From Thermoleophilia bacterium (GTDB lineage: Bacteria > Actinomycetota > Thermoleophilia > RBG-16-64-13), in assembly GCA_016929985.1 (NCBI GenBank), contig JAFGIH010000688.1:1-9471 (forward strand): a stretch of DNA of 9,471 nucleotides, in the 5' to 3' direction. Below, piece by piece: positions 1-9,471 of this stretch. Numbering within the stretch: the stretch's first letter is position 1; each line of letters opens with the position of its first letter. Under the pieces are notes generated by a model that did not search any database, was not told where the DNA came from, and was given only the letters and a program-made list of their open reading frames with translations. The translations under genes and the position numbers were made by a program.

Positions 1-10
1 GGCCAGGAAC

Positions 11-1333
11 CTATCTCCGCTTGCGGCTCTTCGGCACCAACGGGGCGTCCTCGCGTTTGTCTATCGGGACATAGTCGCGCTGGGCCTCCCCGACGTACAC
101 CTGGCGCGGGCGGTAGAGGGCCGTTCCCGAGTCGTGCACCTCTCGCCAGTTCGCGATCCAGCCAGGCATGCGGCCCATGGCGAACATCACCGTGAACATG
201 TTCACCGGTATCCCCATGGCCCGCAGTATGACGCCGGAGTAGAAGTCCACGTTGGGATACAGCCGGCGCTCGATGAAGTAGGGATCGTTCAGAGCCACGT
301 CCTCCAATCTCTTTGCGATCTCGAGCAGGGGATCAGCGGCCTTGAGTTTGCCGAGCAGCTTGTCGGCCGTCTCCTTCATGATCGCGGCGCGGGGGTCGTA
401 GTTCTTGTATACGCGGTGGCCGAAGCCCATGAGGCGCAGCGGCGAATTCTTGTCTTTCACCTGGGAGATGTAGTCGTTCAGGTCGACATTGTCGTCGTGC
501 AGTTGTTGCAGCATCTCCACCACCGCGGCGTTGGCTCCCCCGTGCAGCGGTCCCCACAGCGCGCACACGCCGGCTGCGCAACTGGCGAACATGTTCGCGC
601 CCGAGGAAGCGACCATCCGGACGGTGCTCGAAGAGCAGTTCTGTTCGTGATCGGCGTGCAGGATGAGGATCAACTGCAGGGCGGCCACGGTCTCGGGATC
701 GGGTTCGTAGTCGCTGAAGGGTAGGGAGAACATCATGTGCAGGAAATTCGAGCAGTAGTCGAGGTGTGGCTTGGGGTAGATGATCGGCTGGCCGATGGAC
801 GCCTTGTACGCGGCGGCCGCGATGGTGCGGATCTTGCTGATGAGCCGGGCGGCCGCGATGAGGAAGGTCCGCGTGCTCTCCATCTCCATGAGGTCGGGCT
901 CGTAGCAGCTCATCGCGTTTATCATGGCCGACAATATGGCCATGGGGTGCCCCGTCGCGGGGAACCCGTCGAAGTGGTGATAGAGCCCCTCGTGGATCAT
1001 CTCGTACTTGGTGAAGAGGCCGCTCCAGGCCTTGAGTTGCTCACGGGTGGGCAACTCCCCGGTGATGAGCAGCCAGCACGTCTCCACGAAGGTGCTCTTC
1101 ACCGCCAGTTGCTCGATGGGGATGCCACGGTAGCGCAGGACGCCCTTCTCGCCGTCTACAAAGGTGATGGCTGAGCGGCACGAACCGGTGTTCATGTAGC
1201 CCTCGTCGAGCGTCACGCAGCCGGTGGCATCTCGCAATCCTGTGATATCGAGACCACGATCGCCTTCCGAGCCTGAGACGACCGGGAGCAGGTGCGTCTT
1301 GTCGTTGATGATGAGCTTGGCGGTCTCTGTCAT
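11..1333 (-). CDS. gltA: Citrate synthase (hexameric GltA type)
   Basis: A complete 440-residue citrate synthase, which condenses oxaloacetate with acetyl-CoA in the cytoplasm as the entry step of the TCA cycle. The expected active-site residues are present: His264 in GPLHGG, His306 in GFGHRVYK and Asp363 in NVDFYSG. HADHEQN (226-232), YDPRA (312-316) and the arginine-bearing GRMPGW and RPRQVYVG segments are also present. About 430 residues is the usual length for the bacterial GltA family, so it is intact; the C-terminus ends in a basic PKSRKRR tail. The ATG start is supported by a purine-rich GAGAGGGG (1342-1349 on this strand) eight bases upstream. It is divergent from korA1 across 176 bp, which suggests co-regulation with the ferredoxin-linked oxidoreductase. 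The family is certain; which citrate synthase isozyme this is in the organism cannot be told. Confidence 0.96.
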   Translation of the reverse strand: MTETAKLIINDKTHLLPVVSGSEGDRGLDITGLRDATGCVTLDEGYMNTGSCRSAITFVDGEKGVLRYRGIPIEQLAVKSTFVETCWLLITGELPTREQLKAWSGLFTKYEMIHEGLYHHFDGFPATGHPMAILSAMINAMSCYEPDLMEMESTRTFLIAAARLISKIRTIAAAAYKASIGQPIIYPKPHLDYCSNFLHMMFSLPFSDYEPDPETVAALQLILILHADHEQNCSSSTVRMVASSGANMFASCAAGVCALWGPLHGGANAAVVEMLQQLHDDNVDLNDYISQVKDKNSPLRLMGFGHRVYKNYDPRAAIMKETADKLLGKLKAADPLLEIAKRLEDVALNDPYFIERRLYPNVDFYSGVILRAMGIPVNMFTVMFAMGRMPGWIANWREVHDSGTALYRPRQVYVGEAQRDYVPIDKREDAPLVPKSRKRR

Positions 1334-1411
1334 GTGTGCTGCCCCTCTCGTCCCGACCGTGTGCCTCCAGCCCGCCCGGCATCCGTCGCCGAAGCCGTTT
1401 GGCGCTCCTTC

Positions 1412-1417
1412 AGTCTA
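1412..1417 (-). promoter_or_regulatory. Possible -10 box of the citrate synthase promoter
   Basis: Read on the minus strand this is GGCTAGACTG, containing a TAGACT hexamer like the one before korA2. Transcription would start near 1405 and give a leader of about 70 bases that includes the ribosome binding site at 1342-1349. No convincing -35 is seen 16-18 bases upstream, and there is no TG extension, so this rests on the recurrence of the motif in the window. Confidence 0.3.
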
Positions 1418-1440
1418 GCCGATTGCCGGCAGCAGGCCGC

Positions 1441-1450
1441 TTCGGAGGGT
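1441..1450 (+). repeat. Shared korA leader box, copy 1 (TTCGGAGGGT)
   Basis: TTCGGAGGGT lies 69 bases before the korA1 start and is followed by TGCCCC at 1454-1459. The same ten bases, again followed by TGCCCC, lie 65 bases before the korA2 start. The sequence between this box and the -10 element is otherwise poorly conserved, so the box may be a retained regulator site upstream of the promoter. It could also be a chance remnant of the duplication. Confidence 0.35.
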
Positions 1451-1489
1451 GTTTGCCCCATGCCATTCCGGTCCGGGCGGGTCCGTGGA

Positions 1490-1498
1490 TGCTAAACT
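1490..1498 (+). promoter_or_regulatory. Extended -10 promoter of the first kor module
   Basis: TGCTAAACT fits an extended -10 element (TGn followed by TAAACT, four of six consensus bases). It ends 11 bases before the korA1 ATG, and the paralogous korA2 has TGCTAGACT with 10 intervening bases. The bases between the box and the ATG hold no Shine-Dalgarno-like sequence. If this is the promoter, the transcript would begin only a few bases before the start codon, or at it. No good -35 hexamer is seen, which an extended -10 can tolerate. Confidence 0.5.
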
Positions 1499-1509
1499 CA
1501 CCGTTACAC

Positions 1510-2688
1510 ATGGAACAATGGCATAGCCACCTACTGCGCGAAAGAGTCGACCAGAGCAGCCTGCTGATACAGGGCAACCGTGCCTGCGCTGTGGGCGCCC
1601 TCGATGCTGGGGTCCGTTTCTTTGCGGGCTATCCCATCACTCCGAGCTCCGAGATCATGGAGGCCATGGCCGAAGAGCTGCCCAAGATCGGGGGGGTCTT
1701 CGTGCAGATGGAAGACGAGATCGCCTCGATCTGCGCCTGCATCGGGGCGTCGCTGACTGGCGAACTGGCCATGACGGCGACCTCGGGTCCGGGTTTCTCG
1801 TTGATGCAGGAAGCCATCGGTTACGCCATCATGGTCGAGACGCCTCTACTCATCGTCAACGTCATGAGGGCGGGACCATCGACCGGCCGTCCCACCGCCC
1901 CGTCGCAGGGCGACGTGATGCAGGCGCGCTGGGGCACACACGGTGACCATCCGGCCATCGTTCTGGCTGCGTCCAACGTCGCCGACATGTACCGGTTGAC
2001 TATGGCGGCTGTGCGCTTCGCTCAGCGTTTCCGCACCCCCGTGATCCTTCTGGCCGACCAGTTGGTGGGCCAGATGCGCGAGAGCTTCTCGCCCGAGTTG
2101 ATCGGCCGCTATCGTCTGACGAGCGGCGACTTCGACTTCACGCCGGGCTATATCCACCCCGACTTGGCGCGGGAAGTCCGGCCCCCACACGTCCTCGGCT
2201 CGGGGAGCAACCCGCACGTGACGGGGCTGTACCATGACGAGACCGGTTTTCCCAACAACGATCCCGAGAGAAGCAGCGACTTCTTGCGCGAGCTCTACAA
2301 CAAGGTGGCTCATCACCGTGGCGAGCTCTGCCTGTACGACGTGAAGAACGAGGGCAGGGGCCGGGTGTGCATCGTGGCCTACGGGTCGTGCGCGCGCACG
2401 GCACGAGCCGCTTGGAGGCTGGCCGAGCAGGAGGGCCTGCCGGTGGAGGTGCTACACCTCTATACGCTGTTCCCTCTTCCGGTGGAGATCATCCAGACGG
2501 TGGCCCGTCGCGTGGAGTTCATGCTCATCCCTGAGTTGAATCTGGGGCAGTACGCCCATGAAGTGCGCAAGATGGCCGAGCAATGGACCACGGTCATCGG
2601 CATGGGCAAGATCGACGGCACCCTGTTCACGCCGCGGGAGATCCTCGACCGCATCGCCGAGCTCATCGGCAAGTACGAGAGCGTGTAG
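1510..2688 (+). CDS. korA: 2-oxoacid:ferredoxin oxidoreductase alpha subunit, copy 1 (KorA type)
   Basis: Alpha subunit (392 residues) of a thiamine-pyrophosphate 2-oxoacid:acceptor oxidoreductase, probably the 2-oxoglutarate enzyme: 2-oxoglutarate + CoA + oxidised ferredoxin to succinyl-CoA + CO2 + reduced ferredoxin. Family signatures are YPITPSSE (41-48, substrate region), ATSGPGFSLM (90-99), GPSTG (122-126) and SQGDVMQARWGTHGDHP (132-148), the last typical of KorA rather than pyruvate enzymes. The frame stays open back to 1336 and offers an ATG at 1489. The start at 1510 is chosen because similarity to the paralogue at 4301 begins exactly there (MExWHSHLLRE), both proteins are then 392 residues long, and the upstream frame is not conserved. 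There is no ribosome binding site. korB1 follows after three bases. Substrate assignment is inferred from motifs and from citrate synthase next door. Confidence 0.92.
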   Translation: MEQWHSHLLRERVDQSSLLIQGNRACAVGALDAGVRFFAGYPITPSSEIMEAMAEELPKIGGVFVQMEDEIASICACIGASLTGELAMTATSGPGFSLMQEAIGYAIMVETPLLIVNVMRAGPSTGRPTAPSQGDVMQARWGTHGDHPAIVLAASNVADMYRLTMAAVRFAQRFRTPVILLADQLVGQMRESFSPELIGRYRLTSGDFDFTPGYIHPDLAREVRPPHVLGSGSNPHVTGLYHDETGFPNNDPERSSDFLRELYNKVAHHRGELCLYDVKNEGRGRVCIVAYGSCARTARAAWRLAEQEGLPVEVLHLYTLFPLPVEIIQTVARRVEFMLIPELNLGQYAHEVRKMAEQWTTVIGMGKIDGTLFTPREILDRIAELIGKYESV

Positions 2689-2691
2689 CCT

Positions 2692-3567
2692 ATGCCTCTG
2701 GAGTTCGAAGAGTTACTGCACAGCGAGCGGCTGCCGCACATCTGGTGCCCGGGTTGCGGACTCGGTATCGTGACGGCCGCCTTCTTGCGGGTCGTCGTGG
2801 AACTGGGCCTCGAGCGCGAGAACACGGTGGTGGTGAGCGGCATCGGTTGCTCCAGCCGCGCTGCCAACTACCTCGACCTAGGCACCGTGCACTCCATCCA
2901 CGGCCGCGCGCTGGCGGTCGCCACGGGTGTCAAGATGGCCCGTCCCCACTTCGATGTGGTGGTGTTCACGGGCGACGGCGACGGGGCAGCCATCGGAGGC
3001 AATCACTTCATCCACGCGTGCCGGCGCAACATCGATCTCACCTGCATCCTCTTCAACAACCAGACTTACGGCATGACCGGGGGCCAGACAGCGCCCACCA
3101 TGAACGTGGGTGACCGCTCCACCACCGCCCGCCACGGCCAGGTGGAGCCTCCTTTCGATCTGTGCAGGTTGGCTGAGGCAGCGGGGGCGAGTTTCGTGTC
3201 CCGGGGCATAGCGGCCAACGTCCGTGAGATGGAGAAGCTCATCAAGCGGGGCATCGAGCACCGCGGGTTCTCCTTCATCGAAGCGGTGGTGCCGTGTCCC
3301 ACCGAGTTCGGACGGCGCAACGGCAAGTCGAACGCCATTGACATGCTCGAGGACGAGCGTGCCCGCGCGGTGTCGGTGGCCAAAGCTGCGAAGATGTCGC
3401 ATGAGGAGTTGGCCGGCAAGATCGTGACGGGTGTCCTCCACGAAGACCAGTCGGCTCCCGAGTTCCAGCAGGCCTATGCTGCGAAGGCCCTCGAGCAGGC
3501 CAAAGCTGCCAAGGCCCGCGTGAAGATGGCGACGCCGGCCAAGCCGCCGGTGGGGGAACAGAAGTGA
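2692..3567 (+). CDS. korB: 2-oxoacid:ferredoxin oxidoreductase beta subunit, copy 1 (KorB type)
   Basis: Beta subunit (291 residues) that carries thiamine pyrophosphate and an iron-sulfur cluster. The TPP/Mg motif is GDGDGAA (94-100) with the NN pair at 122-123. Cys19 and Cys22 in WCPGCG, Cys53 in IGCSS and Cys202 in VPCPTEF match the four positions that ligate the [4Fe-4S] cluster in this family. The C-terminal tail (about 263-291) is an Ala/Lys-rich low-complexity extension with a net positive charge. The ATG follows the korA1 stop by three bases, so the two are translated together. The last bases overlap the korC1 start (GTGA). No ferredoxin-like delta subunit accompanies it, so electrons must leave to a ferredoxin encoded elsewhere. 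Confidence 0.93.
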   Translation: MPLEFEELLHSERLPHIWCPGCGLGIVTAAFLRVVVELGLERENTVVVSGIGCSSRAANYLDLGTVHSIHGRALAVATGVKMARPHFDVVVFTGDGDGAAIGGNHFIHACRRNIDLTCILFNNQTYGMTGGQTAPTMNVGDRSTTARHGQVEPPFDLCRLAEAAGASFVSRGIAANVREMEKLIKRGIEHRGFSFIEAVVPCPTEFGRRNGKSNAIDMLEDERARAVSVAKAAKMSHEELAGKIVTGVLHEDQSAPEFQQAYAAKALEQAKAAKARVKMATPAKPPVGEQK

Positions 3568-4217
3568 GCACCCGCCCAAAGGCGTCGGACAGACACGCGC
3601 CCGCCACGGGTGCCGCGCCACAGAGCGAAGTAGTGCCCGTCCGCACGGGCTTGTTGGCAGACCACCATTTTGTGGAGGCCCGCTTCGGCGGAAGCGGCGG
3701 CCAGGGCGTGGTGCTCATGGGGATCATCCTGGCGACGGCCGCCAACTACGACCGCCGCTGCGTGGTACAGACTGAGTCATACGGACCTGAGGCCCGCGGA
3801 GGCTACAGCCGCAGCGATGTGATCATCTCCGACCAGCCCATCGACTACCCCAAGATCGACCACTACGACCTGCTGGTGGCACTCTCCCAGGACTCCGCGG
3901 TGGGCTACGTAAAGAACCTGCGCCGCGACGGCATCCTCATCTACGAGTCGGACAAGGTGACGACGCTCCCCGCATTCTACGGGACGAAGGTCGGCGCACC
4001 CTTCACTCGCTGGGCGCAGGAGGAGACCGGCCGCATACAAGCGGCCAACGTCGTTGCTCTTGGCGCCGTGGTGGCTGTGACGGGCATAGTCTCGGCTGAA
4101 TCGCTGCAGAGGGCCGTCGCCGAGGCCGTCCCCGCGGGTACGCAGGAAGCCAACCTCCGCGCGCTGGCAAGGGGCCTTGCCCTCGAGCCGGCCGATCAGG
4201 GAGCCACGCCCGCCTAA
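3564..4217 (+). CDS. korC: 2-oxoacid:ferredoxin oxidoreductase gamma subunit, copy 1 (KorC type)
   Basis: Gamma subunit of 217 residues. Canonical motifs are intact: FGGSGGQG (41-48) and QTESYGPEARGG (69-80), followed by YSRSDVIIS. About 37 residues precede the first motif, rich in Ala, Pro and Arg, whereas many family members begin only a few residues before it; the paralogue has a similar extension sharing the GLLA segment. The GTG start overlaps the korB1 stop as GTGA and has GGGGGA at 3552-3557, six bases upstream, so the start is well supported. It closes the first module. A short CAGG/CCTG hairpin at 4221-4232 follows the stop, but it is too weak and lacks a T-run to count as a terminator. 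Confidence 0.92.
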   Translation: MSTRPKASDRHAPATGAAPQSEVVPVRTGLLADHHFVEARFGGSGGQGVVLMGIILATAANYDRRCVVQTESYGPEARGGYSRSDVIISDQPIDYPKIDHYDLLVALSQDSAVGYVKNLRRDGILIYESDKVTTLPAFYGTKVGAPFTRWAQEETGRIQAANVVALGAVVAVTGIVSAESLQRAVAEAVPAGTQEANLRALARGLALEPADQGATPA

Positions 4218-4235
4218 CACCAGGGTGCCCTGCCG

Positions 4236-4245
4236 TTCGGAGGGT
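4236..4245 (+). repeat. Shared korA leader box, copy 2 (TTCGGAGGGT)
   Basis: Ten bases identical to 1441-1450, followed by TGCCCC at 4250-4255 and placed 65 bases before the korA2 start. Together with the downstream TGCTARACTC these are the conserved islands in otherwise diverged leaders, which suggests that both modules answer to the same signal. It contains a GGAGG, but no start codon at a suitable distance opens a frame conserved between the two copies. Confidence 0.35.
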
Positions 4246-4281
4246 TGCCTGCCCCGGCGCTCTGTTGCGCCGTCTCCGCGG

Positions 4282-4290
4282 TGCTAGACT
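4282..4290 (+). promoter_or_regulatory. Extended -10 promoter of the second kor module
   Basis: TGCTAGACT, equivalent to TGCTAAACT before korA1, with ten bases between the box and the korA2 ATG. As in copy 1 there is no Shine-Dalgarno sequence in that gap. This suggests that the second module and the activase have their own leaderless or nearly leaderless transcript, rather than depending only on read-through from the first module. No clear -35 is seen. Confidence 0.5.
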
Positions 4291-4300
4291 CGATAGCGCG

Positions 4301-5479
4301 ATGGAACTCTGGCACAGTCACCTGCTGCGCGAGAAGGTCGATCAGAGCAGTCTGCTGGTCCAGGGAAACCGCGCCTGTGCTCTCGGTGCGCTCGACGCGG
4401 GGGTCCGTTTCTTCGCCGGATATCCCATCACGCCCAGTTCCGAGATCATGGAGACCATGGCCTACGAGCTACCCCGGGTGGGCGGTGTCTTCGTACAGAT
4501 GGAGGACGAGATCGCCTCTATCTGCGCGTGCATCGGGGCGTCGGTGTGCGGGCGGATGGCCATGACGGCGACCTCCGGCCCGGGCTTCTCGCTGATGCAG
4601 GAGGCTATTGGCTACGCCATCATGGTCGAGGCGCCGCTGGTGATCGTGGACGTCATGCGCGAGGGGCCGTCCACAGGCCGGGTGAGTGTACCTTCACAGG
4701 GCGACGTGATGCAGGCCCGCTGGGGCACGCATGGCGACCACCCCGCTATCGTGCTGGCAGCCTCCAACGTGGCCGACATGTACCGGCTGACCATGGCGGC
4801 CGTGCGCTTCTCCCAACGCTTCCGTACCCCGGTCACCCTTCTCTCCGACGAGGTGGTGAGCCACATGCGCGAGAGCTTCTCTCCGGAGTTGGCGGAGCGC
4901 TACCGCCTGACGAGCGGCGATTTCGACTTCACGCCCGGCTACGTGCATCCCGACCTGGTGCGCGAAGTGCATCCGCCCCATGTGCTGGGCTCGGAGACGA
5001 ATCCTCACGTCACGGGGTGCACCCACGACGAGACCGGCTTTCCCACCAACGACGCAGGAAAGAGCGAGAAGTTCCTGCGGGAGCTGTACGACAAGGTGAC
5101 TAACCACCGCGACGAGCTCTGTCTCTACGACATGAAGAACGAGGGCAAGGGCCGGGTTTGCATCGTGGCCTACGGGTCGTGCGCCCGGAGCGCCCGGGCT
5201 GCCTGGAGGCTGGCCGAGCGGGAGGGGCTGCCGGTGGAGGTGCTGCATCTCTACACGCTGTTCCCGCTGCCGGTGGAGGTCATCCAGCAGGTGGCGAGAA
5301 GGGTGGAGTTCATGATCATCCCCGAGCTCAACCTGGGCCAATACGCTCGCGAGGTGCGCAAGCTGGCCGAGAACTGGACCACGGTGGTCGGCATCAACAA
5401 GATCGGTGGGAATCTCATCACCCCCCGAGAGATCCTCGACGAGGTGACCCGGCTGATCGGCAAGTACGAGAGCGTGTAG
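4301..5479 (+). CDS. korA: 2-oxoacid:ferredoxin oxidoreductase alpha subunit, copy 2 (KorA type)
   Basis: Second alpha subunit, also 392 residues and ungapped against copy 1 with 65 differences. YPITPSSE (41-48), TSGPGFSLM (91-99), GPSTG (122-126) and SQGDVMQARWGTHGDHP (132-148) are all kept, so catalytic competence and the same substrate class are expected. Changes cluster at 81-86, 112-130, 179-189 and 251-256. The frame extends upstream to a TTG at 4265, but the ATG at 4301 is taken because similarity to copy 1 starts there. korB2 follows after three bases, as in module 1, and the end of both genes encodes the same LIGKYESV. It is read as a diverged duplicate serving a parallel complex; whether its alpha can pair with the beta of module 1 cannot be judged. 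Confidence 0.92.
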   Translation: MELWHSHLLREKVDQSSLLVQGNRACALGALDAGVRFFAGYPITPSSEIMETMAYELPRVGGVFVQMEDEIASICACIGASVCGRMAMTATSGPGFSLMQEAIGYAIMVEAPLVIVDVMREGPSTGRVSVPSQGDVMQARWGTHGDHPAIVLAASNVADMYRLTMAAVRFSQRFRTPVTLLSDEVVSHMRESFSPELAERYRLTSGDFDFTPGYVHPDLVREVHPPHVLGSETNPHVTGCTHDETGFPTNDAGKSEKFLRELYDKVTNHRDELCLYDMKNEGKGRVCIVAYGSCARSARAAWRLAEREGLPVEVLHLYTLFPLPVEVIQQVARRVEFMIIPELNLGQYAREVRKLAENWTTVVGINKIGGNLITPREILDEVTRLIGKYESV

Positions 5480-5482
5480 CCC

Positions 5483-6364
5483 GTGACCCTCGAGATCGAA
5501 CAGTTCCTGCATACCGAGCGGCTGCCGCACATGTGGTGCGCGGGATGCGGCATCGGCATCGTCACGGGCGCGTTCTTGCGGGTGCTGGTCAAGCTTGGCC
5601 TGAAGCGCGAGGAGACGGTGGTGGTCGGCGGGGTGGGGTGCTCCAGCCGGGCGGCCGGTTATGTGGATGTGGGCTCCATGCACACCATCCATGGCCGGGG
5701 GCTGGCCTTCGCCACCGGCATCAAGATGGCGCGGCCGGAGTTCACGGTGGTTGTGTTCACGGGCGACGGCGACGGGGCGGCCATCGGAGGCAATCATCTC
5801 ATCCATGCCTGCCGGCGCAACATCGACATGACCTGCATCTTGTTCAACAACCAGGTGTACGGCATGACCGGGGGGCAAGTGTCGCCCCTGGCCGGCTGGG
5901 GCGACTTGGCGACCACGGCCCCGTACGGCCAGGTGGAGGAGCCGTTCGATCTGTGTGGACTGACACGAGCCGCCGGCGCCACCTTCGTGGCCCGGGGCAC
6001 CGCGGCCGACATCGAGCCCCTGCAGGACATGATCGAACAGGGCGTCAGGCATCCCGGCTTCTCTTTCGTAGAAGCGGTCGTGCCGTGTCCCACAGAGTAC
6101 GGGAAACGAAATATACCGGGGGGCGTGCTTGCCATGCTGGACGACGAGAAGCGGCGGTCGATATCCGCAACCGAAGCTGGGCGGCTGGGACCTGAAGAAC
6201 TGCGAGGTAGGATCATCACCGGTATCCTGCACCATGACACCGGCCGGCCGGAGTTCCAGCGGTCGTATGCGACCATCATCGAAAGGGCACAGGCAGAGGC
6301 GGCCGCCGAAGTCGGGGCCGCGGCCGCGGCCGGGCAGGGCGACAGACAGGGGGATGAGGGATGA
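5483..6364 (+). CDS. korB: 2-oxoacid:ferredoxin oxidoreductase beta subunit, copy 2 (KorB type)
   Basis: Beta subunit of 293 residues with GTG start, three bases after the korA2 stop. GDGDGAA (94-100), NN (122-123) and the four cluster cysteines Cys19, Cys22, Cys53 and Cys202 are present, so TPP and [4Fe-4S] binding should be retained. Two things differ from copy 1. The WCPGCG motif reads WCAGCG, with the normally conserved proline replaced. The C-terminal tail (about 264-293) is Ala/Glu/Asp-rich with a net negative charge, where copy 1 is positive. The 131-148 segment is also changed. The tail DNA is a GC-rich GGCCGC-like run near 6314-6332. The stop overlaps the korC2 start as ATGA, so the subunits are translationally coupled. 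Confidence 0.92.
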   Translation: MTLEIEQFLHTERLPHMWCAGCGIGIVTGAFLRVLVKLGLKREETVVVGGVGCSSRAAGYVDVGSMHTIHGRGLAFATGIKMARPEFTVVVFTGDGDGAAIGGNHLIHACRRNIDMTCILFNNQVYGMTGGQVSPLAGWGDLATTAPYGQVEEPFDLCGLTRAAGATFVARGTAADIEPLQDMIEQGVRHPGFSFVEAVVPCPTEYGKRNIPGGVLAMLDDEKRRSISATEAGRLGPEELRGRIITGILHHDTGRPEFQRSYATIIERAQAEAAAEVGAAAAAGQGDRQGDEG

Positions 6365-7008
6365 GCGAGATCGGTCCGAGCGGATTCAGTCAGCCGGCTA
6401 TCGGGACGGGCCCCGCTCCGGCACGCGCCGGTCTGTTGGCGGAGCGCGACTTCCTTGAAGTTCGCTTTGGAGGTACCGGGGAGCAGGGCGTCATACTGAT
6501 GGGAGTCATCTTGGCCATGGCGGCGACCTTGGACCATCGCTATGTGGCGCAGACGCAGACCTACGGTCTGGGAGAGCGGGAGGGCTACGGTCACAGCGAC
6601 GTCATCATCTCCGACTACCCTATCGACTACCCGGAGATCGAGGGTGCGGATGTTCTTGTCGCCCTATGCCAGGACGCGGCGGACGGGTACGTGGACCTTC
6701 TACGGCCGAGCGGCATCCTCATCTACGACCCGGACGACGTCGCAGTGCCGCTGAGGTTCAGAGGCACGACGTTCGGCGTTTCCTTCAACCGGCTATATTC
6801 TGAGATGACCGGCCGGCCCGAGACAGCCAGCGAGGTCCTCGCGCTGGGGGCGGTGGCCGCTATCACCGGCGTGGTGTCGCAGGTCTCGCTGCGCAAGGCA
6901 ATGCTGAGCACGGTGGGGGCAGGCGTGAAAGGCGTGAACGAAAAAGCTCTGGCCCGGGGACTGGACCTCGACCCGGCAGAATGGCGAAAGGACGGCACAT
7001 GCTCGTAG
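6361..7008 (+). CDS. Divergent 2-oxoacid oxidoreductase gamma subunit, copy 2 (KorC-like)
   Basis: A 215-residue gamma-type subunit, clearly homologous to korC1 (74/130 identical over an ungapped stretch) but altered in both family motifs. FGGSGGQG has become FGGTGEQG (36-43), with the second glycine of the GGQG loop replaced by Glu, and QTESYGPEARGG has become QTQTYGLGEREG (64-75). The following DVIISDYPIDYPEIE segment and the fold-forming hydrophobic pattern are kept, and the frame is intact to 7008, so it looks functional rather than decaying. The start ATG overlaps the korB2 stop and has AGGGGGATGAGGG just upstream. Its 3' end overlaps the activase gene by ten bases. A changed partner or electron route is inferred; the family is sure, the function less so. 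Confidence 0.85.
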   Translation: MSEIGPSGFSQPAIGTGPAPARAGLLAERDFLEVRFGGTGEQGVILMGVILAMAATLDHRYVAQTQTYGLGEREGYGHSDVIISDYPIDYPEIEGADVLVALCQDAADGYVDLLRPSGILIYDPDDVAVPLRFRGTTFGVSFNRLYSEMTGRPETASEVLALGAVAAITGVVSQVSLRKAMLSTVGAGVKGVNEKALARGLDLDPAEWRKDGTCS

Positions 7009-7781
7009 CGGGCATCGATGTAGGGGCGAAGAACGTACATGTCGTGCTGATCAAGGACGGCGAGCTGGTGGCGAGGGCGGCGGTGGCCTCGGGCTTCGAT
7101 CACGAGGATTCAGCCGAGCGGGGCCTGGCCGAGGCGGCTCGTATCGCCGGGGTGAAACGCGAGGACATCGGGCGGGTGGCGGCCACGGGCGCAGGTCGGA
7201 AGGCGTTGGCCTTCGCGGCGGAGCAGCCGACCGAGATCGCGGCCGACGCGCGCGGGGCTTTCGACCTGTACCCGGGGGCCCGAACGGTCGTTGATGTTGG
7301 CGCTGATGAGGCCCGGGCCATCAAGGTTGGCGAGGGCGGCAAGGTCGTTGACTTCGCTATCAACGAGAAATGTGCGGCAGGCGCCGGAGCCTTCGTGGAG
7401 GCCATGAGCCGGGCGCTCGAGATGCCGCTCGACGAGTTCGCCAAGGCCTCCCTGGACTCGACCGAGACCATCCCCATGAACGCGCAATGCACGGTCTTCG
7501 CGGAGTCGGAGGTGGTGAGCCTCATCCACGCCAACACGCCGCCCGGCGACATCGCCCGGGCGGTGCACGATGCGATGGCGAGCCGAGTGTCGACCATGGT
7601 CCGGCGTATCGGGGTCGAGGACCCCGTGGTGCTGGGAGGCGGGGCGGCACTGAACGTGGGATTCGTGAAGGCTCTGTCGGAGGCGCTGGGCGGGGTGGAC
7701 ATCCACGTCCTTACCGACGCGGAATATCTAGGTGCCCACGGGGCGGCTCTTATCGCCTGGGAGGCGGCGCTGAAGGGGTGA
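6999..7781 (+). CDS. BcrA/BcrD/HgdC-type ATPase (CoA-ester dehydratase/reductase activase)
   Basis: A 260-residue ASKHA-fold ATPase of the family that activates 2-hydroxyacyl-CoA dehydratases and benzoyl-CoA reductases. Such proteins form a dimer sharing one [4Fe-4S] cluster and couple ATP hydrolysis to low-potential electron transfer. Features: phosphate-1 motif GIDVGAKN (5-12); phosphate-2 segment VVDVGADEARAIKV (97-110); Cys125 in NEKCAAGAG and Cys164 in QCTVFAESEV, the expected cluster ligands; GGGAALN (213-219) near the adenosine site. Length matches HgdC. DVGADEARAI lacks the GGQD of HgdC and, from memory, is closer to the BcrD/BzdQ branch. The ATG at 6999 is preferred over 6981 because GGA at 6990-6992 is six bases upstream and the family starts just before GIDVG. 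It overlaps korC2 by ten bases, so it belongs to the second module's operon. No dehydratase or reductase partner is in view. Confidence 0.88.
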   Translation: MLVAGIDVGAKNVHVVLIKDGELVARAAVASGFDHEDSAERGLAEAARIAGVKREDIGRVAATGAGRKALAFAAEQPTEIAADARGAFDLYPGARTVVDVGADEARAIKVGEGGKVVDFAINEKCAAGAGAFVEAMSRALEMPLDEFAKASLDSTETIPMNAQCTVFAESEVVSLIHANTPPGDIARAVHDAMASRVSTMVRRIGVEDPVVLGGGAALNVGFVKALSEALGGVDIHVLTDAEYLGAHGAALIAWEAALKG

Positions 7782-7791
7782 GGGTCCCCTT
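7773..7791 (+). terminator. Weak hairpin at the end of the activase gene
   Basis: AAGGGG (7773-7778) pairs with CCCCTT (7786-7791) around a seven-base loop that contains the stop codon. There is no real T-run after it (TCCCTAC), so it would be a poor intrinsic terminator. It may protect the 3' end of the message instead. Confidence 0.25.
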
Positions 7792-7833
7792 TCCCTACAA
7801 CGGAACCCCTGTGCCCCGGGCGCTAAATATGAG

Positions 7834-7839
7834 TATACT
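7834..7839 (+). promoter_or_regulatory. Promoter-like -10 box (TATACT) before the hairpin region
   Basis: TATACT matches five of six bases of the -10 consensus and sits in a locally AT-rich patch (GCTAAATATGAGTATACTT) that stands out in GC-rich surroundings. Transcription would start near 7846. The first ATG there (7846) is followed by a stop after three codons, so the product would more likely be an RNA than a protein. No -35 hexamer is evident at 16-18 bases. Confidence 0.4.
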
Positions 7840-7891
7840 TCGGCCATGAATGGATGATCCCTAGACCTGTGGGGCGGAGGTTTTGTGGACC

Positions 7892-7900
7892 GAGTCTATT
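7892..7900 (+). repeat. 9-bp direct repeat, left copy (GAGTCTATT)
   Basis: Identical to 8140-8148. The two copies bracket a 239-bp segment that holds all the hairpins, as a target-site duplication would. The read-inward ends are loosely inverted: TGGGCACACTC from 7902, against TGGGTTCGCTC on the opposite strand from 8136, matching at eight of eleven positions. On the minus strand the repeat reads AATAGACTC, so a shared -10-like box is an alternative explanation. Confidence 0.4.
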
Positions 7901-7904
7901 GTGG

Positions 7905-8130
7905 GCACACTCAAGCGGCGGATTTGAGCCTCCAACCAGCGAAGTCTGGCTGGGGAAGGCCGGAGCTCGTCATTCTGGTTCGGAGCATGCCAGAAGAAGC
8001 TGTGCTGACAGGCTGCAAGACCAGTCTGACGGCTGGCTCTGGCCACAACAACTGGTGCGTTAACCCCGGCAGTCAGCAGGCCTGCAGCGCAGTAAGCGGC
8101 TCTTAGCTCGAAAGGACAAGCGGGAGAGCG
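7905..8130 (+). ncRNA. Candidate structured RNA (hairpin series), family unknown
   Basis: Successive stems can be drawn by eye. CTCAA 7910-7914 pairs with TTGAG 7924-7928. CCAG 7936-7939 pairs with CTGG 7946-7949 inside a CCT/AGG outer stem (7929-7931 with 7957-7959). TTCTGG 7973-7978 pairs with CCAGAA 7990-7995. The longest is CAGGCTG 8009-8015 with CAGTCTG 8022-8028, extended past an A-A mismatch by GCTG 8004-8007 with CGGC 8030-8033. CTGC 8082-8085 pairs with GCAG 8089-8092, and GCTCT 8099-8103 with AGAGC 8125-8129. The 11-bp stem uses two G-U pairs on the plus strand, and a promoter-like box lies 60-70 bases upstream. No known RNA family is recognised. A small immobile remnant or MITE-like element is the main alternative, and GC-rich DNA forms stems easily. 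Confidence 0.35.
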
Positions 8131-8139
8131 AACCCAGTT

Positions 8140-8148
8140 GAGTCTATT
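8140..8148 (+). repeat. 9-bp direct repeat, right copy (GAGTCTATT)
   Basis: Second copy of GAGTCTATT. It contains the stop codon of the ABC exporter gene (8144-8146). If it is a target-site duplication, the element inserted at the very end of that gene and left its frame intact. Confidence 0.4.
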
Positions 8149-9471
8149 CGCGCGGATCGGACTGTACGCCGTACGCCCGCGCCTGCACCTCGTACATCTC
8201 CGCATAACGCCCACCCAGCGCCATCAGCTCATCGTGCGTGCCGCTCTCGATGATGCGTCCCTGATCGAAGATGTGGATGCAATCGGCGGTGCGCACCGTT
8301 GAGAAGCGGTGGCTGATCAGCACCACCGCACGTCCCCTGGCGAGCTCCTTGATGTGTTGGAACACGTCCCACTCGGCCTGCGGGTCGAGGGCGCTGGTCG
8401 GTTCGTCGAACACCAGGATCTGCGCATTCCGGACGAAAGCCCGCGCAAGGGCGATCTTCTGCCACTCCCCCACGCTCAACTCCTCACCGTCGTCGAACCA
8501 CTTGCCGAGTACGGTGCTGTAGCCATGGCGGAGGCGGTGGATGAAATCGTCGGCCCCGGCATCCCGAGCCGCGGTTTCGATTGCGCTGTCAGCCTCGTTC
8601 AGCATCACGTTCCCCAACCGGATGTTCTCCCGGACCGTCAGCTGATACTGGGCGAAATCCTGAAAGATGACGCTCATGTTGCGGCGGAGATCCAAAACGT
8701 CGAACTCGCGTATGTCTGTGCCGTCGACGGTGATGCTGCCGCTGGTGGGGTCGTAGAGCCGGCAGAGGAGCTTGACCAGCGTGGTCTTGCCCGAACCGTT
8801 GGGGCCGACGAACGCGGTCACCTCTCCCGGCCTGATAGCGAGAGAGACCTCTTGAAGAGCCGTGCGCTCGGTGTCCGGATAGCTGAAGACGACGTTGTCG
8901 AAGCGGACGCCCTCGTCAATCTGCTGCGGCACCGGCACCGGCTTCTTCGAAGGGATAATGCGCGGCTCGAGTGCCATGAACTCGTCGAAATAGGATAGGA
9001 AAAGGCTGTCCTCGTAGAGGGTGGCGAATCCGCGCAGGACCGCCTGCAGCGAGCCCAGACTGGTCTGGAAGGCCTGGTAGTAGGCCATCATGTCGCCCAG
9101 GGTGATATCGCCCTGGATGGCCCTCCAGGCCACATAGGCGAACGTCCCGAACACCGCCAGCACGGCCGCAGCGCCCGCGCCCAGTTCGGCCAGCGAGCGC
9201 CAAGCCACTAGGCCGATGAGTTCGCGGCGTAATCTCTGCCGCAGGCTCCGATGCCAACTACGGAAACGGTCGCCGAGGCCGAAGAGGCGCATCTCCTTGG
9301 CGTGGCCGCTGTCGGTGAGGAGCCAGTGGGCATAGTACGACTGGCGCTCCGTCTCGGTGCGGCGCCGTTGCCAGGCGAAGAGCCTGCGCGAGTAGAGGAA
9401 TCGCACCGCTGCTCCGGGGATGGCGGCTGCAAGCACGATCAGACCCACCACCCAATGCAGCGAGAGCAGCA
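8144..9471 (-). CDS. ABC exporter, fused membrane and ATPase domains (partial, 5' end outside window)
   Basis: C-terminal part of a type I ABC exporter half-transporter. The frame is open to the window edge (at least six sense codons lie upstream of the GTG at 9451), so the N-terminus and first membrane helices are missing. Numbering from 9451: a basic intracellular stretch, the coupling segment AKEMRLFGLGDRF (51-63), a hydrophobic helix around 90-110, then the nucleotide-binding domain. That domain has A-loop Tyr191, Walker A GPNGSGKTT (216-224), Q-loop Gln264, signature LSVGEWQ (325-331), Walker B ILVFDEP with Glu350, D-loop SALD and switch His381. All catalytic residues are present. The signature is LSVGE rather than LSGGQ, a known variant in peptide/lipid exporter-like proteins. 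The cargo cannot be inferred. It converges on the kor-activase operon and has no evident link to it. Confidence 0.93.
   Translation of the reverse strand, partial: LLSLHWVVGLIVLAAAIPGAAVRFLYSRRLFAWQRRRTETERQSYYAHWLLTDSGHAKEMRLFGLGDRFRSWHRSLRQRLRRELIGLVAWRSLAELGAGAAAVLAVFGTFAYVAWRAIQGDITLGDMMAYYQAFQTSLGSLQAVLRGFATLYEDSLFLSYFDEFMALEPRIIPSKKPVPVPQQIDEGVRFDNVVFSYPDTERTALQEVSLAIRPGEVTAFVGPNGSGKTTLVKLLCRLYDPTSGSITVDGTDIREFDVLDLRRNMSVIFQDFAQYQLTVRENIRLGNVMLNEADSAIETAARDAGADDFIHRLRHGYSTVLGKWFDDGEELSVGEWQKIALARAFVRNAQILVFDEPTSALDPQAEWDVFQHIKELARGRAVVLISHRFSTVRTADCIHIFDQGRIIESGTHDELMALGGRYAEMYEVQARAYGVQSDPRE

Follow-up and report, generated by a model that had tools for sequence, protein, structure and literature searches.

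What enzyme is supplied when a 2-oxoacid:ferredoxin oxidoreductase (Kor) is encoded directly in front of an ATPase of the kind associated with coenzyme A (CoA)-ester reductases, and the reductase itself is nowhere in sight? The question is raised by a contig of a Thermoleophilia bacterium (JAFGIH010000688.1, assembly GCA_016929985.1), of which positions 1 to 9,471 were analyzed (hereafter the window, i.e., the whole 9,471-nt stretch). Open reading frames, families and sequence agree in placing korA2, korB2, korC2 and an ATPase of the BadF/BcrA family in one overlapping string (4301-7781), as in a preliminary description of this DNA, which had also noted that neither a ferredoxin nor a delta subunit is encoded between Kor and the ATPase and that subunits of a dehydratase or reductase are not in view; none of these is encoded anywhere in the window. 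The Kor alpha, beta and gamma subunits are all matched by their families (PF01855, PF17147, PF02775, PF01558), and alignments display the thiamine pyrophosphate (TPP) and 4Fe-4S motifs. We propose, with about an even chance of being right, that these genes feed electrons to a low-potential, ATP-driven reductase that descends from the bzd-type class I benzoyl-CoA reductase, with a protein pair that we call D3ab as the acceptor.

Identity of the ATPase

The description of the ATPase as BcrA/BcrD/HgdC-like stands at the family level (PF01869, 155.2 bits, cut-off 31.5; TIGR00241, 204.9 bits, cut-off 125.4), and falls where it implied a complete HgdC-like activase. The protein reaches 155.8 bits with the BzdQ model TIGR03192, against a cut-off of 380.2, and a P-specific model is absent from its profile matches; its assignment comes from a comparison of 80 ATPase loci (L001-L080), the best 80 of 270 confirmed among 428 matched stretches. 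The usual order in these relatives is bzdN, bzdO, the P ATPase, a second ATPase, a 97-amino-acid (aa) Fe-S protein and, in many cases, a BzdV-like flavoprotein. Upstream sequence of 2.7 kb or more is available for 60 loci (the other 20 being too short to count): 44 have bzdN or bzdO before the ATPase, seven have KorC, and nine have neither (L008, L017, L021, L031, L035, L047, L052, L054, L063). On the downstream side, 57 loci extend for 4.5 kb or more, and 55 of these carry a Q-type ATPase no more than 400 bases away; the two exceptions, L001 and L002, are the closest to the window. In genomes G001 and G002 BzdQ is found about 6 and 10 kb downstream, respectively, behind the same ABC transporter as in the window; the window itself does not contain BzdQ. 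The second ATPase of L007 passes TIGR03192 (434.7 bits), and the N and O proteins of L009 pass TIGR03190 and TIGR03191 (567 and 584 bits).

Gene order identifies the window ATPase as BzdP, which together with BzdQ makes up the electron activator of class I benzoyl-CoA reductase. A stand-alone, one-gene activase of the HgdC/HadI type, i.e., a single ATPase beside dehydratase genes, was considered and rejected: in relatives the ATPase gene opens a P-Q pair, as the close second ATPase in those 55 loci indicates, and the Kor-linked loci show no dehydratase gene next to it. The 4Fe-4S cysteines are present in the window ATPase (C131, C170), both being kept in all 80 aligned P rows (the window and 79 of the 80 loci), and the two cluster cysteines of the Q-type ATPase are kept in 72 and 71 of 72 rows. 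The P-type proteins further display a G-A-(E/D)-E motif (G107 in 80/80 rows, E110 in 78) vs GGQD in BzdQ (72/72 rows), and the P subunit may on this account handle the nucleotide differently from BzdQ.

Linkage to Kor without the benzoyl-CoA pathway

KorABC lies directly before bzdP in L001-L007 (P 70-92% identical), the seven closest of the 80 loci, and also in genome G047; because of this recurrence the linkage is not a product of chance. The order of G001 is sampled by 18 genomes, 12 of which carry bzdP, and Kor is linked to it in eight of the 12 (G001-G007, G047), these relatives being uncultured Actinobacteria/Thermoleophilia metagenome-assembled genomes (MAGs). The earlier proposal, in which a Kor module serves the ATPase of a CoA-ester reductase whose acceptor could be remote, is borne out to this extent; the linkage is shared by several species and not limited to a single strain. 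Within 1.2 kb upstream of the ATPase, KorC was found in none of the 73 other loci. Four genomes of the order (G008, G009, G053, G074; L017 is on the same contig as G053) carry bzdPQ with the Kor-alpha orthologue elsewhere.

In the Kor-linked loci, Kor occupies the position that N-O holds in other loci, and the catalytic partner is not seen elsewhere in these genomes: BzdN scores over the cut-off in none of the eight, and in one of the 18 genomes of the order, the sister genome G009, which carries bzdNOPQ. For BzdO, the genomes were covered by the PF06050 census described below. The ring hydrolase Oah (6-oxocyclohexene-1-carbonyl-CoA hydrolase, TIGR03200) is likewise over the cut-off in none of the eight; it is so in seven of the 18 (G008, G009, G030, G041, G053, G074, G093), including four of four bzdP genomes that are not Kor-linked vs none of eight that are (Fisher test, 0.002, uncorrected for kinship; all Fisher tests here ignore shared ancestry). 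Gaps in a MAG could conceal a gene in one genome, hardly in eight. A Thauera-type scenario of aromatic degradation, invoked in the preliminary description, is at odds with the Kor-linked genomes, neither BzdN nor Oah being found in them. Here the activator seems to have persisted after its customary acceptor and pathway were lost, and the pump seems detached from benzoyl-CoA degradation. A caution is that bzdP-type genes, many of them named "benzoyl-CoA reductase subunit D" in one source, are on their own no sign of aromatic degradation, and the conserved pairing of pump and Kor without a detected catalytic half suggests that the pump can be re-targeted.

Several side observations touch on the same theme. 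In the Oah-bearing bzdP genomes of the order (L008, L009, L172 of G053 and L173 of G074), a further HGD-D protein or pair (25-29% identical to BzdN/O) is encoded about 6-8 kb from bzdPQ, and might possibly be another BzdPQ target. P-Q genes without N-O upstream also occur in other phyla: in L031 (Chloroflexi, upstream of 7589) large HdrA/MvhD-like Fe-S proteins precede bzdP, and in L052 and L054 (Syntrophomonadaceae) acyl-CoA-ligase-like genes lie upstream of P-Q (all names assigned by eye).

A candidate acceptor

The BzdQ and D3ab data come from relatives of the window, whose own organism presumably has both, to judge from them. A PF06050 census sorted by tblastn found two proteins, D3a and D3b, to be the only HGD-D proteins in three Kor-linked genomes (G003, G006, G047). 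D3b is present in 12 of the 18 genomes of the order, 11 of which are among the 12 with bzdP (Fisher test, 0.004); in an evenly drawn, class-wide sample of 199 genomes, D3b and bzdP (63-92% identity) occur in 12 each and together in 11 (Fisher test, 4e-16), with any ATPase match at 1e-40 in 16. Outside the order, one of 50 bzdP genomes tested (of 70 such loci) gave a match, at 30% identity. A protein search recovered at least 190 homologues (7998 best candidates scored), the 120 listed being 74-99% identical. The most likely acceptor is D3ab, a lineage-restricted HGD-D heterodimer encoded elsewhere in the genome, which as a specific and easily recognized candidate enzyme allows its substrate to be sought.

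In Aromatoleum BzdN the cysteines C36, C73, C100, C263, C293 and C327 bind an [8Fe-9S] cluster (PMC11971306). Aligned with the L009 BzdN, D3a retains all six double-cubane cysteines in the 10 complete rows of 12, the other two being cut fragments. By eye, HadC lacks two and MbdN three of the six. The D3b cysteines aligned with C96, C132 and C392 of the L009 BzdO are kept in 12, 12 and 11 of 12 rows; these positions presumably correspond to C95, C128 and C380, which bind the cluster in Aromatoleum BzdO. From these patterns D3a is predicted to hold one [8Fe-9S] double cubane and D3b one [4Fe-4S] cluster. A structure model of D3a (eight sequences; predicted local distance difference test, pLDDT, 72) has DCCP as its best match (E-value 2e-12) followed by BzdN (2e-11), with a template-modelling (TM) score of about 0.6; that of D3b (15 sequences, pLDDT 83) matches HadB (8e-18, TM 0.78) and BzdO (1e-14, TM 0.77). 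In five of the six neighborhoods compared, D3ab has a pair of CoA-transferase-type genes close by (domains assigned in one); the sixth contig ends 3.8 kb after D3b.

A long protein with two PF01869 domains (frames mostly >1000 aa) is also encoded in 16 of the 18 genomes of the order (G002-G009, G013, G024, G030, G041, G047, G053, G074, G098). Five of these genomes are without D3ab, and the protein's candidacy as a specific D3ab activator is unsupported.

Proposed electron path

The gene content suggests the path Kor > Fe-S protein > BzdPQ > D3ab. KorABC would oxidize a 2-oxoacid, probably 2-oxoglutarate, yielding low-potential electrons, which a small Fe-S protein, whose gene follows bzdQ in relatives, would carry to BzdPQ; the ATPase dimer would spend ATP in driving them to a still lower potential, and D3ab, in place of BzdNO, would accept them and reduce some CoA ester that is not benzoyl-CoA. 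Since most relatives encode the 97-aa Fe-S protein after BzdQ, the direct Kor-ATPase contact envisaged earlier is not required, though it may still occur. A BzdV-like protein with an NAD(P)H/flavin domain (as in L011) accompanies 40 of the 50 non-Kor loci and none of the seven Kor loci with enough downstream sequence; L001 (17837-19171) and L009 (12063-13205) encode a BzdV-like Fe-S protein without that domain (380-445 aa vs 845 aa in L011). Direct input from NAD(P)H seems to have been abandoned throughout the order, which would make Kor a natural electron source. A more ambitious version, which we put forward tentatively and hold to be somewhat less probable than the supply-side proposal itself, is that of a new ketoacid-fueled, ATP-driven reductase: BzdPQ, freed from aromatics and coupled to KorABC, would drive D3ab with its predicted clusters on a non-aromatic substrate, and the duplicated Kor of the window and L001, with its degenerate KorC2, would be specialized for this role.

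Several observations weigh against a D3ab-directed supply system. D3ab was not found beside bzdPQ. Although no BzdN-type partner operon was found elsewhere, further HGD-D proteins, which could be the acceptors there, are encoded in addition to D3ab in G002 and G004 (an HA/HB pair) and in G005 and G007 (DCCP-type); in G004 and G005 an activase gene adjoins them. G001 has bzdPQ without D3ab, its only HGD-D protein being DCCP-type (NF040772, 480 bits, cut-off 350), and is possibly an incomplete MAG, as it also lacks the two-domain ATPase; conversely, G093 (1.2 Mb) has D3ab without bzdP. D3ab is present in Oah-bearing genomes too, among which G053 has D3b split over two frames. The co-occurrence of D3ab and bzdP was observed within a single order. 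Most of the middle domain of BzdN is absent from D3a, whose model is modest on both scores. The D3b model is slightly closer to a dehydratase alpha subunit than to BzdO, so D3ab could be a dehydratase. Kor linkage as the cause of the loss of the BzdV-like NAD(P)H domain is rejected, L008 and L009 being without the domain too. Finally, a looser Kor-bzd vicinity is not specific to the order: a Kor-alpha-like gene (22-40% identity) lies 6-10 kb from bzdP in seven of the 73 other loci (L015, L030, L033, L040, L046, L062, L070), in keeping with the known association of Kor with bzd genes.

Alternative explanations

The alternative that survives best, though we consider it unlikely, follows from the possible dehydratase nature of D3ab: Kor-fed BzdPQ would catalytically start a 2-hydroxyacyl-CoA dehydratase, either D3ab or the HA/HB pair of G002 and G004, with electrons required only rarely, in the manner of HgdC and HgdAB. 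HadB is indeed the best match of D3b in score and fold, and the CoA-transferase-type pair near D3ab would suit such an enzyme. The six-cysteine double-cubane pattern of D3a, incomplete in HadC, speaks against it, as does the activase adjoining HA/HB in G004, and a dedicated Kor would hardly be required by a starter.

Less probable still is an ordinary supply of a bzd-type benzoyl-CoA reductase, whose BzdNO would have been missed by the MAG assemblies, with aromatics degraded as in Thauera and Chloroflexi. Kor is a known donor for this enzyme: KorAB supplies it in Thauera (PMC9973337), and korAB with bzdV is given as the ferredoxin-regenerating system accompanying bzdNOPQ in Chloroflexi (PMC5736913); the bzdNOPQ of the sister genome G009 points the same way. 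Against this stand the lack of BzdN and Oah over the cut-off in all eight Kor-linked genomes and the place of Kor where N-O would be. Moreover, the PF06050 proteins of the Kor-linked genomes sort into D3ab, DCCP-type and the HA/HB pair, the last scoring 45-65 bits with the BzdN model, far under its cut-off of 453.8.

Genomic inertia, by which a Kor of the tricarboxylic acid cycle near citrate synthase ended up before bzdPQ on the loss of bzdNO, with no dedicated electron link, is improbable. It would account for the citrate synthase gene on the other side of Kor, and for Kor-alpha orthologues (at least 80% identity) in genomes without bzdP (G013, G024) or away from bzdP in the four mentioned above. 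It sits poorly with the gene overlaps in the window, with a linkage held in eight of eight genomes despite changes in Kor copy number, and with bzdP being the most constrained gene of the string.

Corrinoid-protein activating enzymes are, we assume, akin to this ATPase family. The activation by BzdPQ of a metalloenzyme outside the HGD-D family, e.g., a corrinoid enzyme, with Kor as donor, is nevertheless very improbable: ATP-dependent activating enzymes do reactivate corrinoid proteins (PMC6739815) and G001 has no D3ab, but P/Q accompany HGD-D partners in 44 of the 60 loci and D3ab tracks bzdP.

Duplication of Kor and the divergent KorC2

The second Kor module of the preliminary description is present in the window, but as a complete tandem duplicate it is found only there and in L001: L002 has A1-B1-C1-C2, and a single A-B set is present in the remaining Kor-linked relatives. 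KorA2 is 83% identical to KorA1, KorB2 62% to KorB1 and KorC2 53% to KorC1. In a tree, A1 clusters with L001-L004, and A2 with KorA of L005-L007, where it is single-copy; the simplest history would be that Kor was duplicated in tandem in a common ancestor of L001-L004 and the window, and that later losses always spared a Kor gene adjacent to bzdP. All genes compared between the window and L001 are under purifying selection, strongest in bzdP (ratio of non-synonymous to synonymous substitution rates, dN/dS, 0.04; KorA2, 0.06).

The motifs GxGGQG and SYGPEARGG, which we take to be canonical for the gamma subunit, are intact in KorC1 and in the KorC of L003-L007; KorC2 has GGTGEQG and QTYGLGEREGY in their places, with GxGGQG and PEARGG lost. 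Similarly degenerate gamma subunits recur, intermixed with normal ones, among the 120 homologues listed. In L002 (8453-10010) KorC2 stands next to bzdP with KorA2 and KorB2 missing, hinting at a role apart from its own A2B2. A direct transfer of electrons from KorC2 to BzdP, which this locus would favor, is conceivable; against it, L003-L007 get by on a KorC with normal motifs.

Relation to known systems

Few nitrogenase-like routes lead to extremely low redox potentials, and ATP-driven enzymes with a double-cubane cluster provide some of them. KorAB was reportedly described as the supplier of benzoyl-CoA reductase in Thauera by Dorner and Boll in 2002, and a Kor-fed benzoyl-CoA reductase is thus already known; new here are the direct linkage of Kor to bzdP without BzdN or Oah in eight genomes and a concrete candidate acceptor. 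In the open-access literature searched we found no description of a Kor-bzdPQ linkage without bzdNO, nor of D3ab. With KorAB of Thauera aromatica and some Rhodopseudomonas palustris the system shares a 2-oxoacid:ferredoxin oxidoreductase as the presumed source for an ATP-driven CoA-ester reductase; it differs in that the catalytic reductase and aromatic pathway of those organisms are not found, and in that the A, B and C subunits of Kor each have a gene of their own, in the string that also holds bzdP.

DCCP is a homodimer, as is the activator of HadBC. DCCP and its partner DCCP-R resemble the proposed system in their same-family ATPase, in the match of DCCP to the D3a model and in the double-cubane cysteine pattern, whereas D3ab is a two-gene pair with no adjoining activase. 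The 2-hydroxyisocaproyl-CoA dehydratase HadBC resembles D3b in fold and in three cluster cysteines and departs from D3a in the two double-cubane cysteines absent from HadC. BzdNOPQ of Aromatoleum sp. CIB, in which the roles of BzdPQ and BzdNO in the bzd-type reductase have been set out (PMC11971306), is alike in its P and Q ATPases with bridging-cluster cysteines, the P-Q order and the Fe-S protein after Q; it differs from the eight Kor-linked genomes, where BzdN and Oah are undetected and KorABC holds the place of N-O.

Genes of the window

Table 1. Genes in the 9,471-nt window and the matches by which they were assigned
Feature	Coordinates	Strand	Basis
Citrate synthase	11..1333	-	NF004126, 609 bits (cut-off 505); divergent from the kor string
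KorA1, 2-oxoacid:ferredoxin oxidoreductase alpha subunit, first copy	1510..2688	+	NF006412, 471.6 bits (cut-off 411; read from 1480); start set by homology
KorB1, beta subunit (TPP, 4Fe-4S)	2692..3567	+	PF02775; NF007207, 290.8 bits (under its cut-off of 364)
KorC1, gamma subunit, motifs GGSGGQG and ESYGPEARGG	3564..4217	+	PF01558; motif comparison
KorA2	4301..5479	+	NF006412, 469.6 bits (cut-off 411)
KorB2	5483..6364	+	Profile matches; cysteines and TPP motif retained
KorC2, divergent gamma subunit	6361..7008	+	PF01558, 78.6 bits
BzdP-position ATPase, BadF/BcrA family	6981 or 6999..7781	+	PF01869, TIGR00241; N-O-P-Q gene order of relatives
ABC transporter, MsbA-like (frame leaves the window)	8144..9451	-	PF00005; synteny

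Within the string, KorA2 and KorB2 are 3 bases apart, KorB2 and KorC2 overlap by 4 bases, and KorC2 overlaps the ATPase by 10 bases if the latter starts at the ATG at 6999 or by 28 if at 6981; the former start fits the 260-aa length of 57 of the 120 homologues listed. A promoter scan returned no sites, and five terminator-like sites (mean of 2.2 in shuffled sequences) were not judged informative; a search of viral contigs gave four pattern matches and no relative. The citrate synthase gene adjoins the kor string in L001-L004 and G047 too, and lies about 2.5-2.8 kb off in L006 and L007. On the other side, the ABC transporter is also found 3' of the ATPase in L001 and L002, there between bzdP and bzdQ.

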